The notes under the pieces were generated by a model that was not told the DNA's origin, made no database searches, and saw nothing but the letters and a program-made list of their open reading frames with translations. DNA of 53,373 nt from Lachnospiraceae bacterium. GTDB taxonomy: Bacteria; Bacillota; Clostridia; Lachnospirales; Lachnospiraceae. Each line of letters begins with the position of its first letter. The first letter of the stretch is position 1. Of the stretch, positions 1 to 30,700 are shown one piece after another. The stretch spans positions 1 to 53,373 of the forward strand of contig JAAWKU010000006.1 in NCBI GenBank assembly GCA_022797535.1, in the 5' to 3' direction. A program made the translations under genes and the position numbers.

Positions 1-96
1 GTCAACGATGCCACCGCATCGCCTCCCTCCTCCGCCTTGCAGACTGAAAATTCATCCGGCGTCATTTTACTGAAAGTCAACGATACAGCACACTAG
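1..96 (-). repeat. Partial copy of a dispersed MITE-like repeat (copy 1)
   Basis: This stretch is cut by the window edge. Read on the minus strand from 96, it begins CTAGTGTGCTGTATCGTTGA and matches the complete copy at 19584-19712 over about the first 50 bases. Shared landmarks are the CTAGTGT.CTGTATCGTT end, an AAAATGAC block, TGAATTT.CA and TCTGC. The terminal CTAG (93-96) contains the TAG stop codon (93-95) of nfnB, so the repeat abuts the gene with no spacer. No coding capacity is visible. It is probably a non-autonomous mobile element, but only one end is in view. Confidence 0.6.
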
Positions 97-1481
97 TTCA
101 TGTTGGAAAGATATTCATCAATCCCTTTCGCCGCCGCCTTTCCGGCCCCCATTGCCAGAATCACGGTAGCCGCCCCCGTCACGGCGTCACCCCCGGCGTA
201 CACAGCTTCCTTGGTAGTCTTGCCGTTCTCTTCATCCGCCACAATGCATTTCCACTTATTGGTCTCCAATCCTTCGGTGGTGGAAGAAATCAGCGGATTC
301 GGGGAAGTTCCCAGAGACATGATCACCGTATCCACCTCCAGCACAAACTCGGAGCCGGGCACTTCCACCGGCCTTCTTCTGCCGGACTCGTCAGGCTCGC
401 CCAGTTCCATACGAATGCACTTCATACCTGTCACCCAGCCCTTATCATCTGCCAGAATCTCGGTGGGATTGGTCAGCAGGTCAAAGATGATGCCTTCCTC
501 CCTGGCATGATGTACTTCCTCCACACGGGCAGGCAGTTCCTCCTCACTGCGGCGGTATACAATATGCACCTCTGCCCCCAGCCGCAGAGCGGTGCGGGCC
601 GCATCCATGGCCACATTGCCGCCGCCCACCACGGCCACCTTTTTCCCTCGCATAATGGGGGTATTGCTGTTTTCATCAAAAGCCTTCATCAGATTGCTTC
701 TGGTAAGGTACTCATTGGCGGAAAACACACCGTTGCTGTTCTCACCGGGTATGCCCATGAACTTGGGCAGCCCTGCGCCAGAGCCGATAAACACTGCTGA
801 GAAGCCCTCCTCAGCCAACAGCTGATCTATGGTGACGGATTTACCCACCACCACATTGGTCTCAATCTTCACTCCAAGGGATTTCACGTTTTCGATCTCC
901 CTGGCTACCACCGCCTCCTTGGGCAGACGGAACTCCGGAATACCATATACCAACACGCCTCCGGGCTCATGCAATGCCTCAAAGATGGTGACTTCATAGC
1001 CCAGCCTGGCCAGATCTCCGGCACAGGTCAATCCTGCGGGACCGGAGCCGATCACCGCCACTTTTCTGTCCTTTTTCTCTTTGGCCCCCTCCGGCTTTAT
1101 CCCCTGCTCCCGGGCATAATCCGCCACAAAGCGCTCCAGCTTACCAATGGATACCGGCTCCCCTTTGATGCCCCGGATACACTTGCCCTCGCACTGGCTC
1201 TCCTGGGGACACACCCTGCCGCACACAGCGGGCAGGGCGCTGGCCTGGCTGATGGTCTGATAAGCACCCTCCATATCCCCGTTTTTTACCTGCTCCACAA
1301 AGCCCGGGATGTTGATCGCCACGGGACAGCCTTTGACGCACTGCGCGTTCTTGCAGTTGATGCAGCGGGCGGCCTCCTCCATGGCCTCTTCTTTGTTGTA
1401 TCCCAGACATACCTCTTCAAAATTCTTCCCACGCGCCTGCGCATCCTGTTCCCTCACAGGCACCTTTTTCAAAACATCCAT
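93..1481 (-). CDS. nfnB: NADPH-binding subunit of NfnAB transhydrogenase (GltD-like flavoprotein)
   Basis: This is the large subunit of the electron-bifurcating NADH-dependent ferredoxin:NADP+ oxidoreductase, a cytosolic enzyme that couples NADPH, NAD and ferredoxin pools. The 462-residue protein has an N-terminal Cys-rich region for two [4Fe-4S] clusters (CINCKNAQCVKGCP near residue 41, then CGRVCPQESQCEGKC near 87). An FAD Rossmann motif (VIGSGPAGLTCAGDL, about 143) and a second dinucleotide motif (VVGGGNVAMDAARTA, about 286) follow. The start has AGGAGA 7 nt upstream. nfnA lies 143 bp upstream on the same strand, the usual nfnA-nfnB order. The family overlaps with the glutamate synthase small subunit, but no large glutamate synthase subunit is nearby and the NfnA partner favours Nfn. 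The stop codon is formed inside the CTAG end of a repeat element. Confidence 0.88.
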   Translation of the reverse strand: MDVLKKVPVREQDAQARGKNFEEVCLGYNKEEAMEEAARCINCKNAQCVKGCPVAINIPGFVEQVKNGDMEGAYQTISQASALPAVCGRVCPQESQCEGKCIRGIKGEPVSIGKLERFVADYAREQGIKPEGAKEKKDRKVAVIGSGPAGLTCAGDLARLGYEVTIFEALHEPGGVLVYGIPEFRLPKEAVVAREIENVKSLGVKIETNVVVGKSVTIDQLLAEEGFSAVFIGSGAGLPKFMGIPGENSNGVFSANEYLTRSNLMKAFDENSNTPIMRGKKVAVVGGGNVAMDAARTALRLGAEVHIVYRRSEEELPARVEEVHHAREEGIIFDLLTNPTEILADDKGWVTGMKCIRMELGEPDESGRRRPVEVPGSEFVLEVDTVIMSLGTSPNPLISSTTEGLETNKWKCIVADEENGKTTKEAVYAGGDAVTGAATVILAMGAGKAAAKGIDEYLSNMN

Positions 1482-18873: not shown

Positions 18874-19551
18874 CTATTTCTTCTTGGTGCGGCTCCCATC
18901 TTCTTTCTTCTGTCCAACGGCCATGGGATCATACTGCATGTCAAATAAGTCGATCACCTCCGCGCCGAACAGATCGTGCATGTAAGAATAAATCTGCCGG
19001 TTCTGGTATTCCATCTCCTGTTTGCGGACCAGGTTTTTCTTGAGTTCAACCCGGATGTTTTTTACCCACTGGGCGATCTCCACAATCTGCCGGGTGTTCT
19101 CCTGCATACTCTCATAACAATAGCTCATGGTCAACAGCATGAGGGCATGGTTCACCTGTTCGATCTGCCGGGGCAAATCCATCAGTTCGTCCTGGTATTC
19201 CTCCAGCTTCCCGTTGCACTCCTCAATCAGCCGCCTGTGCTCATCCAGCTTTTTCTCCAGGGGCTTGCTGTACTTCTGTTCCAACTCGTTGGCCATGGGA
19301 ACGATCTCATCCATCAGCTTTTTTTTCAGCTTTTTTATGTTCTTGGAATCCACATTCAGCTGGCCCTGCCGCTGCACCAGTTCGTTGAGCTGCTTTTCCT
19401 TCTCCTGGATCCTGGGCAGTTCGGCCAGGTCCCTGAACAGCTTATACCAGTTGTTATCCAACGTCAGTACCGGCACCCTTTTCCCTGCCAGCGCCTGCTC
19501 GTATATATCCGACTTGTCTCCCACTACGCATCCGTCCTTTCCCTGGGACAT
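18874..19551 (-). CDS. Coiled-coil protein of unknown function
   Basis: From the ATG at 19551 the protein has 225 residues. A short N-terminal segment (KDGCVVGDKSDIYEQALAG) suggests a small folded unit, and WYKLFRDLAELPRIQEK leads into a long Lys/Glu/Leu-rich coiled coil (about 55-145). A mixed helical segment and a basic C-terminus ending in KKK follow. No signal peptide or membrane helix is seen. The start is uncertain: the ATG has only a weak AGGA about 18 nt upstream. The frame stays open through the adjacent repeat element to a TTG at 19614, which sits too close to an AAGGAGG to be used well. It is the first gene of the nnr-alr-mazF group. I do not recognise a characterised family. Confidence 0.72.
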   Translation of the reverse strand: MSQGKDGCVVGDKSDIYEQALAGKRVPVLTLDNNWYKLFRDLAELPRIQEKEKQLNELVQRQGQLNVDSKNIKKLKKKLMDEIVPMANELEQKYSKPLEKKLDEHRRLIEECNGKLEEYQDELMDLPRQIEQVNHALMLLTMSYCYESMQENTRQIVEIAQWVKNIRVELKKNLVRKQEMEYQNRQIYSYMHDLFGAEVIDLFDMQYDPMAVGQKKEDGSRTKKK

Positions 19552-19583
19552 GTCTGAAAAATCATTCCTGCCATCTGCACGCC

Positions 19584-19712
19584 CTAGTGTGCTGACTCGA
19601 TTATATTCAGGCAAACCTCCTTGCCTAAATTCTCATCGTTGACCGACGACAACGCGGCAGATGGAAATTCAGGCAAGTCATTTTGCGAAATGTGAACGAT
19701 ACAGTACACTAG
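19584..19712 (-). mobile_element. Complete MITE-like repeat (copy 2) between rex and the coiled-coil gene
   Basis: The 129-bp unit is bounded by CTAG at both ends. Just inside, the ends form an imperfect inverted repeat, TGTGCTGACTCG on the plus strand and TGTACTGTATCG on the minus strand (9 of 12 identical). Inside are three copies of a TTGCCT/AGGCAA motif that can form hairpins, an AAGGAGG and a TATAAT near the end facing the coiled-coil gene. The right-hand CTAG (19709-19712) contains the TAG stop of rex. Copy 1 lies at 1-96. No transposase is encoded. TG...CA ends and a CTAG target resemble IS481-family behaviour, but the link is inferred. Confidence 0.6.
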
Positions 19713-20353
19713 CACCCGTTCTCCTGAAGATATCTGTTGATATTGTAGGACAGTTTCATCAGGCTGTCAGACAGGTGTACATTCTCCACCTGTATCCCTT
19801 CCGGAACATTCAGATCCACATGGGCGAAATTCCAGATGGCCTTGATCCCATTCTGCACCAGGCGTTCAGCCACTTCCACCGCGCTGGTTTTCGGAATCGC
19901 CAGCACCGCTATGTCCACGTCATTGTCACGGATGAATTGTTCCATCTCCTCCATGGGCTGCACCCGGATCCCCCGGACCTCCCTGCCCGTCAATGCGGGA
20001 TTCTTGTCAAATATCCCACTGAAAATGAAACCTCTCCGCTCAAAATTCAGATATCCCCCCAGCGCCTGCCCCAAATTCCCCGCCCCTATAATGATGAAGC
20101 GATGGGTCCGGTCCAATCCCAGTATCCTGCTGATCTCCTGATACAGATATTCCACATTGTACCCGTAGCCCTGTTGTCCGAAGCCGCCGAAATTATTCAG
20201 ATCCTGGCGGATCTGCGAGGCTGTCACCTTCATCCGTTCGCTGAGTTCCTGGGAGGAAACCCTTTCCAGGCCCTCATCCTTCAAATCTCCAAGGTAACGC
20301 AGATACCTGGGCAGACGCCCGATGACCGCCTGGGATATTTCCTTCTCTTCCAT
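19709..20353 (-). CDS. rex: Redox-sensing transcriptional repressor Rex
   Basis: Rex binds DNA when NADH is low and releases it when NADH is high, controlling fermentation genes. Two adjacent ATGs exist; the one at 20353 has GGAGG at 5 nt and gives 214 residues. The N-terminal winged helix contains RLPRYLRYLGDL and the recognition region VTASQIRQDLNNFGGFGQQGYGY. The C-terminal Rossmann fold has IIGAGNLGQALGGY, and IWNFAHVDLNVPEG is the conserved end motif. A consensus promoter lies at 20387-20415. The TAG stop overlaps the CTAG end of the repeat element. Confidence 0.95.
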   Translation of the reverse strand: MEEKEISQAVIGRLPRYLRYLGDLKDEGLERVSSQELSERMKVTASQIRQDLNNFGGFGQQGYGYNVEYLYQEISRILGLDRTHRFIIIGAGNLGQALGGYLNFERRGFIFSGIFDKNPALTGREVRGIRVQPMEEMEQFIRDNDVDIAVLAIPKTSAVEVAERLVQNGIKAIWNFAHVDLNVPEGIQVENVHLSDSLMKLSYNINRYLQENGC

Positions 20354-20386
20354 CATATCCTCCAAAGTACAAATCTAACTGTATTT

Positions 20387-27767: not shown

Positions 27768-30700
27768 TTATCTTGCCGCTGCCACTTTCACCGGCACTCC
27801 CCTCTTATCCTTCTTGATGAACAGGATGAAGGAGATGCATGCCAGGCCCATGGCCAGGAACCACTTGGGATGAATCCCGTCGCCTGTCTTGGGCGTGCTG
27901 TCCTGTATCGTTCCTGCCGACAGATCCTTGGTATCCACATAAATCACATACGGCGAGAAATGTGTAGCCGTAAAGCTGATGCAGGGAACGCCGGATATAG
28001 TGGTAAATTTGGGGGTCAGCTTCTCCAGCCTGCCGTCCACCACACTGGCAACCTTGTTATTGCCCGCATAAGGGATCAGGGAATCCGGAATGGGCAGCGT
28101 AATATCCACTGCCAAGCCCGTGGTATCCGTGATCTTGTGGGTTCCCGTGGAATCATAAAGACTGATGTCCATAGGGAAGTAGGAGATGTTTGTCAAGTCT
28201 CCATACTCATTCATCAGAGCCTTCAGCGCCGCTTCCGTAGCATTGGCGTCCTCAGAAATCTTTACCACAAAATTGTCCGAAGAACCGTTCACCGTCACGG
28301 AAACCACTCCCGTGTTAGACAGGCCGTTCTTATTGATCACAACAGTCGTTCCATTGCTGCTGCCTGTGGAAGACTCGTTGCCACTGCCCGTTCCGGTACC
28401 ATTGCCTGTACTGCCGCCGGGCCGGGTGACAGTTCCCGTATTGCCTGTATTGGTCTTGGACTTATAGTTTGCCGTCATGGTAACATTGGATGCCGGCATA
28501 ATCAACACAGTTCCCATAGAGGACTTGCTGGCCACCACCGCTGTTGAAGGCTCCACCGTCCAGCCACTGAACTCCGAATTGTTGCTGGGGTTATCTGCAA
28601 TTACAATAACCTGCGCTCCTACCACATAGCTGCCGGAACCTGAACCATTCCTCACAGTAAGGGTAAAGATACCCGGTGCAGGAGACGGCGTCGGCGTGGG
28701 TGTGGCATTCGGATTCGACGGATTGTTGGTCGGCGTGGGCGTTGCTCCCGGCGGTACGGGAGTAGGTGAAGCATTTGGCCCTGGCGTCGCATTCGGGTCG
28801 GGCGTAGGCGTAGGCCAGCCGGGCCCTACCGGTACATATTGGGCATAGGTGTCCGTATCCTTAGTAATCTCCGTAATATCCGGTTTCCAGCCAGTAAATC
28901 TCCAGCCGCTCCGATCCGGCACCCTGGGTTCCGTTGCCTTTTCTCCAGGCGCTATACGCTGAGAAGAAATAAGCACATCTTTGCCATCATCACCCGTTAC
29001 ATAAAAATTCACGGTAAACTTATTCTCATCTGTATCTACTTTGTCATACTTTGCAATTACAATGGTATCCTTTGTAATATTGGTGCATGGAGGAGCCCAA
29101 CCTACAAACCGCTTACCGGGCTTTTCCGGAACTACGGGAGGCTTTGCGTCCTGTCCAGGGAATACACGATCCGTTCCCAATACTGTCACGCCATCCTCGT
29201 CCATAAAGGTAACTGTCAGCTTGGAATCTTCCGGATCATTTGCCTTATAAGAGCCTAAGCAGTCCAAATCCCTGGAAACCCCGCGATAATCAGGAAACCA
29301 TCCCAAAAATGTATATCCCTCAAACTCAGGGGGCGTAGGGGGAACTGCATCTTCTCCTCCTTTTACCGTCTGGGTTTCCAGAAGCTGCTGCTCACCATTG
29401 ATAGGATTCAATATGCCAAATGATACCTTGAATTCCAGTTCAATAGGCTTGTCGCTGATATTAATATTCCCATGGTTGCTGGCGTAAATATTGGCCGCGC
29501 TGTCAGGTTCACAGTAGAATTCAATCGTCTTATACTTCTCCCTGGCAATTCCATCGTCCTCTTCCGTCTCCGTATGGGGACTGTTCTTATCCGTGTTAAA
29601 AGCATCCAGATCAATATAGCTGACACTGCCGGGAATTTCCAGTGAACTGACGGCGCTGTTCTTAAATGCGTTCTTCTGGATCTGCTTACAAGTCTTGGGC
29701 AGATACACGGCAAACATATTACTCTTTGCCATTTCGCTGGCTGCAAAAGCATACTCCGGCACTTTATCAATAACGGACTCTTTCAGGTCCACGATGCCTA
29801 TACCGGAGCAGTCATAGAAAGCCTCTCTGGCAATCCCTGTGACTCCTGCCAGTTCTCCTGCCTTGATGGAAGTGGAACCGCTCTTGGCCCCCCTGGCTTC
29901 CAGACACTCGATCAGCATGCTCTTCTCACCGCCGTTCAATCCATAGATAATGGATTCCTCACAGCGGAAGTTAGGACCGTCCTGAAAGCTGACATAAGTC
30001 ACATTAGGGCAGCCTGCAAAAGGCCTGACACCCATAGCGTTCACATTGGCAGATATTTCAACCTTTTCCAGATTCACACAGTCTCTGAAGGCATAGTCGC
30101 CAATCGTAGAAGTATCCCCGAATATATACAGTTCTTTCAGGTTCGTACAGCCCTTAAATGTTTCCGGTAAAATCTCCCTGATGCTGTTAGTTGTAATGGT
30201 CTTCTCAAGACCGCTTCTAGTTTCTTTGGCTTCATTCTCTACAAACAACTCTTCCCTGACAGCCTCAATACCCTGGGGCAGATTAATATTCAGTGCAGAG
30301 TTAATAATCTGCCTCTCATAGTCTGTCAAATCGGCAGCGTTGCCAAAATTAGCTTTCGCGTTCTTTGCCGCTTCCTTCATTTCGTCAGTCATATAAGGAA
30401 ACTGATCTAACCAGGCATTCTGATCCAGCTTTTCAAAGATCGGGTAATCAATCAACTCGTTCTTATCTGTCTCCTCATTGTACTTTACGGTAAGATTGGT
30501 GGGCCAGCCGCTGTAATACGTAATATATGTGCGTTCCTGGCTGCCAACATTAATATTATTGTCCGGGTTCATTGCATAGTCAAAGGGGCCGCTGGCATAG
30601 GAAATATCCCCTGTAAAGGTGAGTTTCAAGTCCTTTCCCGTCAGCAGAGCGCCGTCGCACCCGGTCTGGTGGATTGTGGCCTCCTGGGTTTTAAAAGCAT

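Follow-up and report, generated by a model that had tools for sequence, protein, structure and literature searches.

Why should two copies of a short palindromic repeat end exactly where two unrelated genes stop? The question is raised by a 53,373-nucleotide stretch of DNA from a Lachnospiraceae bacterium (hereafter the window), one whole contig (G000:C172) of an assembly of 3.54 Mb in 206 contigs (G000, hereafter the own genome). A preliminary description had read the repeat as a MITE-like unit that inserts at CTAG, duplicates it and so restores the TAG stop of the gene that it hits, with IS481 as a possible source of transposase. Both of the copies that it described are present, as copies of a palindromic element flanked by CTAG (Table 1), and in both the outer CTAG supplies a stop codon: that of rex (218 residues, stop at 19709-19711) and that of a gene first named nfnB, whose stop (93-95) was placed correctly and lies at the identical position in the relative G021, but which scores as gltA (462 residues).

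Table 1. Positions within the window of the two repeat copies, their outer CTAG sites and the genes that end on them
Feature	Position	Strand	Basis
Element copy, 129 bp, with CTAG on both sides	19584..19712		Fold, arm typing, sequence
Left outer CTAG; its TA is the probable target duplication	19584..19587		Sequence
Right outer CTAG; its CTA is the rex TAG stop (minus strand)	19709..19712		Sequence
rex, redox-sensing repressor, ending on the element	19709..20365	-	NCBIfam Rex models over cut-off
Second copy, arm type B and part of the core, cut by the contig start	1..96	+	Sequence
Outer CTAG of the second copy, with the gltA TAG stop in its CTA	93..96		Sequence
gltA-type NADPH-dependent glutamate synthase small subunit, ending on the element	93..1481	-	TIGR01316 over cut-off

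The two copies are not versions of a single unit, as had been supposed. The copy at the window's edge is indeed partial, yet it is no short version, being truncated because the contig starts inside the repeat; the complete copy is a hybrid of a type C left arm (CTAGTGTGCTGACTCGATTATATTCAGG) and a type A right arm (the reverse of CTAGTGTACTGTATCGTTCACATTTCGC) from which half of the central core is missing. Folded alone, the hybrid reaches -51.5 kcal/mol, against -26.3 (s.d. 3.5) for shuffled sequences (z -7.3 and -6.3), while the fragment at 1-96 is not distinct from its shuffles (z 0.3 and -1.4). CTAG is scarce in the window, as first noted, occurring nine times where 100 dinucleotide-preserving shuffles average 133, and element ends account for three of the nine. 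The end motif AACGATACAGNRCACTAG (up to three mismatches) has four matches where 0.09 are expected; three are the element ends, and the fourth, at 27895, shows no element end. A relic of another repeat (GGCGTGCAGATGGCAGGAATGATTTTTCAGACATGTCCC, minus strand) directly adjoins the element at 19545-19583, as also at three further loci (L005, L130 and L139); at the end of this neighbour the sequence in other genomes is ATTTTTCAAACACGCTCTAG, whose CTAG is occupied by MITEs at several loci. Given this neighbour and the hybrid make-up of the window copy, the two flanks of that copy do not represent the halves of a single target. Arms C and D of copies in the own genome (e.g. 19584-19625) carry an outward-facing TATAAT about 18 bp from the end, a possible outward promoter.

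Beyond the window, the repeat proved to be the high-copy element that had been predicted: the end motif (up to two mismatches) occurs at 69 places in the own genome, and the reversed motif at none. About half of these (34 of 69) are found no more than 150 bp from a contig start, as expected if assembly breaks in near-identical copies; 40 of 42 matches are 94-100% identical, the other two 78%. Among 61 genomes the end motif was found only in the own genome and one non-congeneric genome (G053), and in none of 36 congeners, while a 20-bp end (up to one mismatch) occurs in 16 of 397 genomes of a family sample, the own genome counted. A full copy measures 165 bp (e.g. G000:C116:8712-8876, L031) and joins two arms of six types, A to F, paired A-B, C-D or E-F or as hybrids. 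The smallest is a 39-bp mini-element (G000:C109:4507-4545, L058) between two open frames reading towards it, each of which ends at one of its CTAG ends, although our simple gene caller retained one of these frames and dropped the other.

The repeat is a mobile element. It is short and lacks a transposase gene, from the 129-bp window copy down to the 39-bp one, and recent movement is evident both from the near-identical copies and from empty sites of the kind that the preliminary description had proposed to look for: the element is absent at the rex site and at the C116 site in two close relatives, G460 and G021. For 29 of 83 ends a homologous flank was found in a 1.2-Mb sample of G021; the alignment came within 50 bp of the site in 11 of them, with no element in the stretches displayed, and the other 18 stretches may stop short of the site.

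A loose pattern detected 125 distinct ends in the own genome, a few of them chance matches, and a stricter one, for which a flank of 200 bp or more was required, found 117, comprising 17 tandem ends (copies sharing one CTAG) and 100 non-tandem ends; these counts cover the fetched loci (the best 100 of 110 places) rather than a census, and the motif rule for tandems probably set one end aside wrongly (L131, not at a stop). CTAG targeting is borne out by the non-tandem ends, 77 of which begin CTAG, five TTAG and one ATAG. The remaining 17 begin CCAG, CTGG or GCAG; flanks other than CTAG had been named as evidence against such targeting, and they do exist as a minority, none of them at a called stop. 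Older-looking copies in the own genome are those flanked by CCAG or CTGG, as if CTAG decays by transitions.

The idea that gene ends serve as landing sites fared well when these ends were set against stops called with our own gene caller in G000 and G021. Of 83 xTAG ends (some being the two ends of one copy, and the 17 with mutated first bases excluded), 29 fall on a called stop, 46 are intergenic and eight lie at the boundary of a gene reading away. Stop seating is found in 20 of 54 arms of types A and B and in nine of 29 other arms. By contrast, 60 unoccupied CTAG sites in 453 kb of the own genome comprise three stops, 12 sites in genes and 45 between genes, while 23 of 177 unoccupied sites in G021 are stops; compared with non-coding CTAG sides in G021 (23 of 218), element ends are enriched at stops with an odds ratio of about 4.6 (p 2e-6). 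Reading frames give the same contrast: open frames of at least 150 codons run into element ends 28 times in the TAG frame and nine times in the other frames, against 5 and 27 at empty CTAG sides. Stop seating in the own genome thus exceeds what CTAG availability provides. Among 79 copies from other species the TAG frame leads by 20 to 10, whereas control CTAG sites (40 that resemble element ends were skipped) give 6 to 28, but stop seating itself is not clearly raised there (18 of the 69 copies that are not interior, compared with 6 of 48 at control sites, p 0.10), and outside the own genome CTAG availability may be enough to account for it. CTAG is also depleted in G021, with 177 unoccupied sites in 1.2 Mb against 866 expected, so that the depletion is not caused by this element.

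The 79 copies belong to a wider family that is recognised by its centre. The core consists of GCAAGGCGGAGGA, a hairpin and GACGACAACGC, and is kept between Lachnospiraceae and Streptomyces while the ends vary. A 29-base core pattern matched at least 104 stretches in named genomes, hosts among the matches listed being Blautia, Roseburia, Anaerobium, Faecalimonas, Acetatifactor, Hungatella, Enterocloster and unnamed Lachnospiraceae. From these we obtained 79 distinct complete copies, 17 that are cut by an edge and eight without recognisable ends. A CTAGTGT pattern alone gave an end around the core in 17 copies and both ends in six; it found so few because the ends are diverse, and a search for any inverted repeat was used instead. 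Despite the many end families, 75 of the 79 complete copies of Lachnospiraceae type are 164-166 bp long, and conservation reaches beyond the search pattern, into GCAAGGCGGAGGA.

The core is not confined to the Lachnospiraceae. In 20 Streptomyces plasmid records the own copy finds a match limited to the core, at 80-90% identity in 18 cases, and a Streptomyces copy used as query returned 46 records, all from Streptomyces; element copies had no match in phages or in E. coli genomes, and three in viral contigs. In an alignment of own, Lachnospiraceae, Streptomyces and viral cores, GCAAGGCGGAGGA and GACGACAACGC are almost invariant and the intervening hairpin varies on both of its sides; at the level of sequence the core is common to two phyla. 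Of 18 Streptomyces loci opened, nine have clear ends, e.g. CTAGGGGGTGTCG, and nine do not, clear ends being those with at least 11 of 15 terminal bases matching (the finder requires TA, and the cut was chosen after seeing the list). In all eight annotated copies with clear ends, representing seven loci (L385 and L391 being one and the same), a CDS stops exactly at the element end, in L383 on both sides; the ninth, L397, lies where there is no annotation. Among the nine loci without clear ends a CDS stops at the assigned end only in L401. In one 50-kb Streptomyces control, however, three of five CTAG sites are annotated stops, so that CTAG targeting alone could give the stop seating observed there.

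What keeps this core? Compensatory, two-sided changes occur at 45 of 60 pairs, and 93% of cells pair, in a set of 30 sequences that joins the own copy to 29 copies hand-picked for end diversity, with the structure taken from that alignment itself; 500 shuffles and slid structures all fall far short of this support. The palindrome is thus maintained well beyond the first 20-30 bases, for which arm-to-arm conversion, transposase binding and selection are each a possible cause. Compared with its complement, the core strand gives the more stable fold in 70 of 71 full copies and in 13 of 13 Streptomyces cores, and in the 31 pairs common to both folds G-U outnumbers A-C by 72 to 36, a suggestive excess that depends on the G-rich core. 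It might be argued that the repeat is primarily a structured 3'-UTR RNA (a terminator, stabiliser or processing site) positively selected at gene ends, with mobility as its route there. The compensated hairpin, the conservation of the core across phyla and the strand asymmetry of folding all speak for such a role. We nevertheless consider it unlikely, since the repeat has no preferred orientation at stops, with an open frame in the TAG frame at 10 of 27 ends of type A and at 11 of 26 of type B, 54 of the 83 counted ends are not at stops, and the palindrome has the other possible causes just named. Rfam, moreover, gave no family for the window at gathering score and none in E-value mode to E 1; a further E-value search returned six matches, all to miRNA precursor models (long hairpins) and far below gathering.

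Tentatively, and with rather less than even confidence, we suggest a mobile family spanning at least two phyla that is defined by its folded core and not by its ends. Its copies would swap ends to suit whichever CTAG-specific IS630 transposase is available, keep a near-fixed length and use CTAG to land on stops without changing proteins, while the core, as RNA or as folded DNA, would act as a module that exposes a ribosome-binding-like GGAGGA and is recognised by a putative factor.

How much of CTAG is duplicated on insertion bears on the transposase involved. The end finder applied to the 79 complete copies from other genomes gave extra points to TAG/CTA and so favours a TA outcome; with that bias, CTAG stands on both sides in 50 copies and TA on both sides in 64. 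Only the outermost base is changed in 10 of the 79 and only the inner base in none (sign test 0.002, which the finder's bias renders optimistic), as TA duplication predicts; a change inside TA on one side occurs in eight. The Streptomyces copy at L385/L391 reads TTAG at one end and CTAA at the other, with 15 of 15 terminal bases matching. Three copies have equal four-mers other than CTAG on both sides (CTAC in L153, GTAG in L168 and CTAA in L174), and one end family perhaps uses a transposase with a 4-bp stagger. The duplication that the preliminary description assigned to CTAG as a whole is thus likelier to be of the TA within it, with these three copies fitting a 4-bp duplication better.

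IS481 as the source of transposase was not supported, its five matches in the genome all falling below cut-off. No IS481 in the loci examined was flanked by a pair of element ends; one end lies just outside an ORF fragment (L075), and one end-like motif inside an ORF (L074). Similar ends are found on IS630-family elements elsewhere. One (L086) is the N-terminal part of an IS630 element, with HTH_29 and HTH_32 over cut-off, whose end equals arm B at 18 of the first 20 and 26 of the 34 terminal bases. Another (L108), on a viral contig, is complete, with two open reading frames, the second carrying DDE_3 and matching NF033545 at 129 bits (cut-off 100), and with the same 27 bases, CTAGTGTAGTGACATATTGATATTTAG, at both ends; a more distant IS630 (L109) also has CTAG-flanked ends, and at two loci (L037 and L098), read by eye, only the start of a similar ORF is present at a contig end. 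Terminal inverted repeats agree at 17-20 of the first 20 bases between arms A and B, the end in G451 and those in G053, G333 and G375, and at 12-15 of 20 between MITE ends and L108; the window's left arm (type C) is less like IS630 ends (13-14 of 20). The CTAGTACA end pattern gave, in viral contigs, one element cut by a contig edge and one probable chance match.

These resemblances make it well supported that the element is of the IS630 type, and we infer that an IS630 transposase supplied in trans moves it. It is improbable that another DDE transposase, for example an IS481-like one, does so while duplicating all four bases of CTAG: the three copies with equal four-mers, two of them in the 'CCATCC' end family, would suit it, and at CTAG targets it predicts the same sequence as the TA model, so that the two cannot be told apart there, but the sub-threshold IS481 matches, the IS630 ownership of similar ends and, finder bias allowed for, the ten outermost-base against no inner-base changes argue the other way. 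For the favoured IS630 source, the own assembly yielded no intact matching transposase and no match to that of L108, in a search run without a positive control. An IS630-like gene in C141 was rejected as partner, having broken frames and, as the only CTAG around it, that of a MITE at the contig start. The own genome is 93.75% complete and broken at repeats, and the transposase gene may be missing from the assembly for that reason. IS630 itself, to go by the title of a 1991 paper by Tenzen and Ohtsubo, prefers the TA in CTAG. TA duplication has been recorded in 34 of 39 products of ISY100, an IS630-type element (PMC2170065, as far as the available part of that paper goes).

Taken together, we consider it highly probable that the repeat is a non-autonomous, IS630-type miniature element which prefers CTAG, duplicates TA, rebuilds the stops that it hits and is thereby steered to gene ends. 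A CTAG-preferring IS630 transposase acting in trans would excise the element, insert it at the TA within CTAG and duplicate the TA. With an element that starts with G and ends with C, both junctions would read CTAG again, and a gene ending in C-TAG would therefore keep its stop, on either strand and in either orientation. Each insertion would leave two CTAG targets, allowing tandem copies that share one CTAG. Since CTAG is depleted, and part of what remains outside genes consists of a C followed by a TAG stop, an element that targets CTAG would be steered to gene ends, to which the selective loss of harmful insertions probably adds.

Relatives indicate where the stops lay without the element. 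The last codon of rex has the same position in G460 (TGA) and G021 (TAA), both of which lack the element; the gene before the C116 copy ends GGC-TAG in the own genome, GGT-TAG in G021 and AGT-TAA in G460, neither relative having the element there; and at the C78 copy the preceding gene falls one codon short of its G021 counterpart. That the element's TAG instead truncates genes at random positions, and only resembles a native stop, is most improbable: an element end does put TAG in frame whenever TA occupies codon positions 1-2, and in two cases the gene is 4-5 codons short of that in G021, but the frames run 28 to 9 and not to one third, and of 12 stop-seated ends compared with element-free G021 (ten from the G021 sample, read by eye and including the C116 gene and gltA, plus rex and the C78 gene) six stop at the same codon, two within one codon, and besides the two shorter genes only two could not be aligned to the end.

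Rebuilding of the stop thus offers a simple rule for harmless insertion, whereby a CTAG-targeting transposon that starts with G restores the TAG that it hits. The repeat is also widespread in gut Lachnospiraceae, has its core in common with Streptomyces and breaks assemblies, and its conserved centre asks for a function. In the literature on IS630 and MITEs in these hosts we found no description of this repeat family, most subscription papers and ISfinder lying outside the scope of the search. Among the nearest known systems is RUP, the repeat unit of pneumococcus, of 107 bp and 108 copies, proposed to be mobilised by IS630-Spn1 (PMC2229807). Like RUP as presented in the accessible part of that source, the element is short, lacks a transposase, has IS630-like ends and has TA at its target; it differs in sequence and core. 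That source has RUP lying between genes and targeted to IS regions, and CTAG, stop seating or an end-swapping family are not mentioned in that part of the text (PMC2229807). With ERIC, Correia/NEMIS and similar palindromic repeats it shares a length of 100-200 bp, an end-to-end hairpin and TA at the termini, whereas these are not described, in the same portion of that source, as one core between phyla with many unrelated ends (PMC2229807). Unlike IS630 and ISY100, members of the Tc1/mariner superfamily that are autonomous and carry their transposase, it has a central core, absent from the seven IS630-type loci checked (several of them fragments); with them it shares the resemblance of its ends and, probably, the duplication of TA, as the part of the ISY100 study available gives it (PMC2170065).
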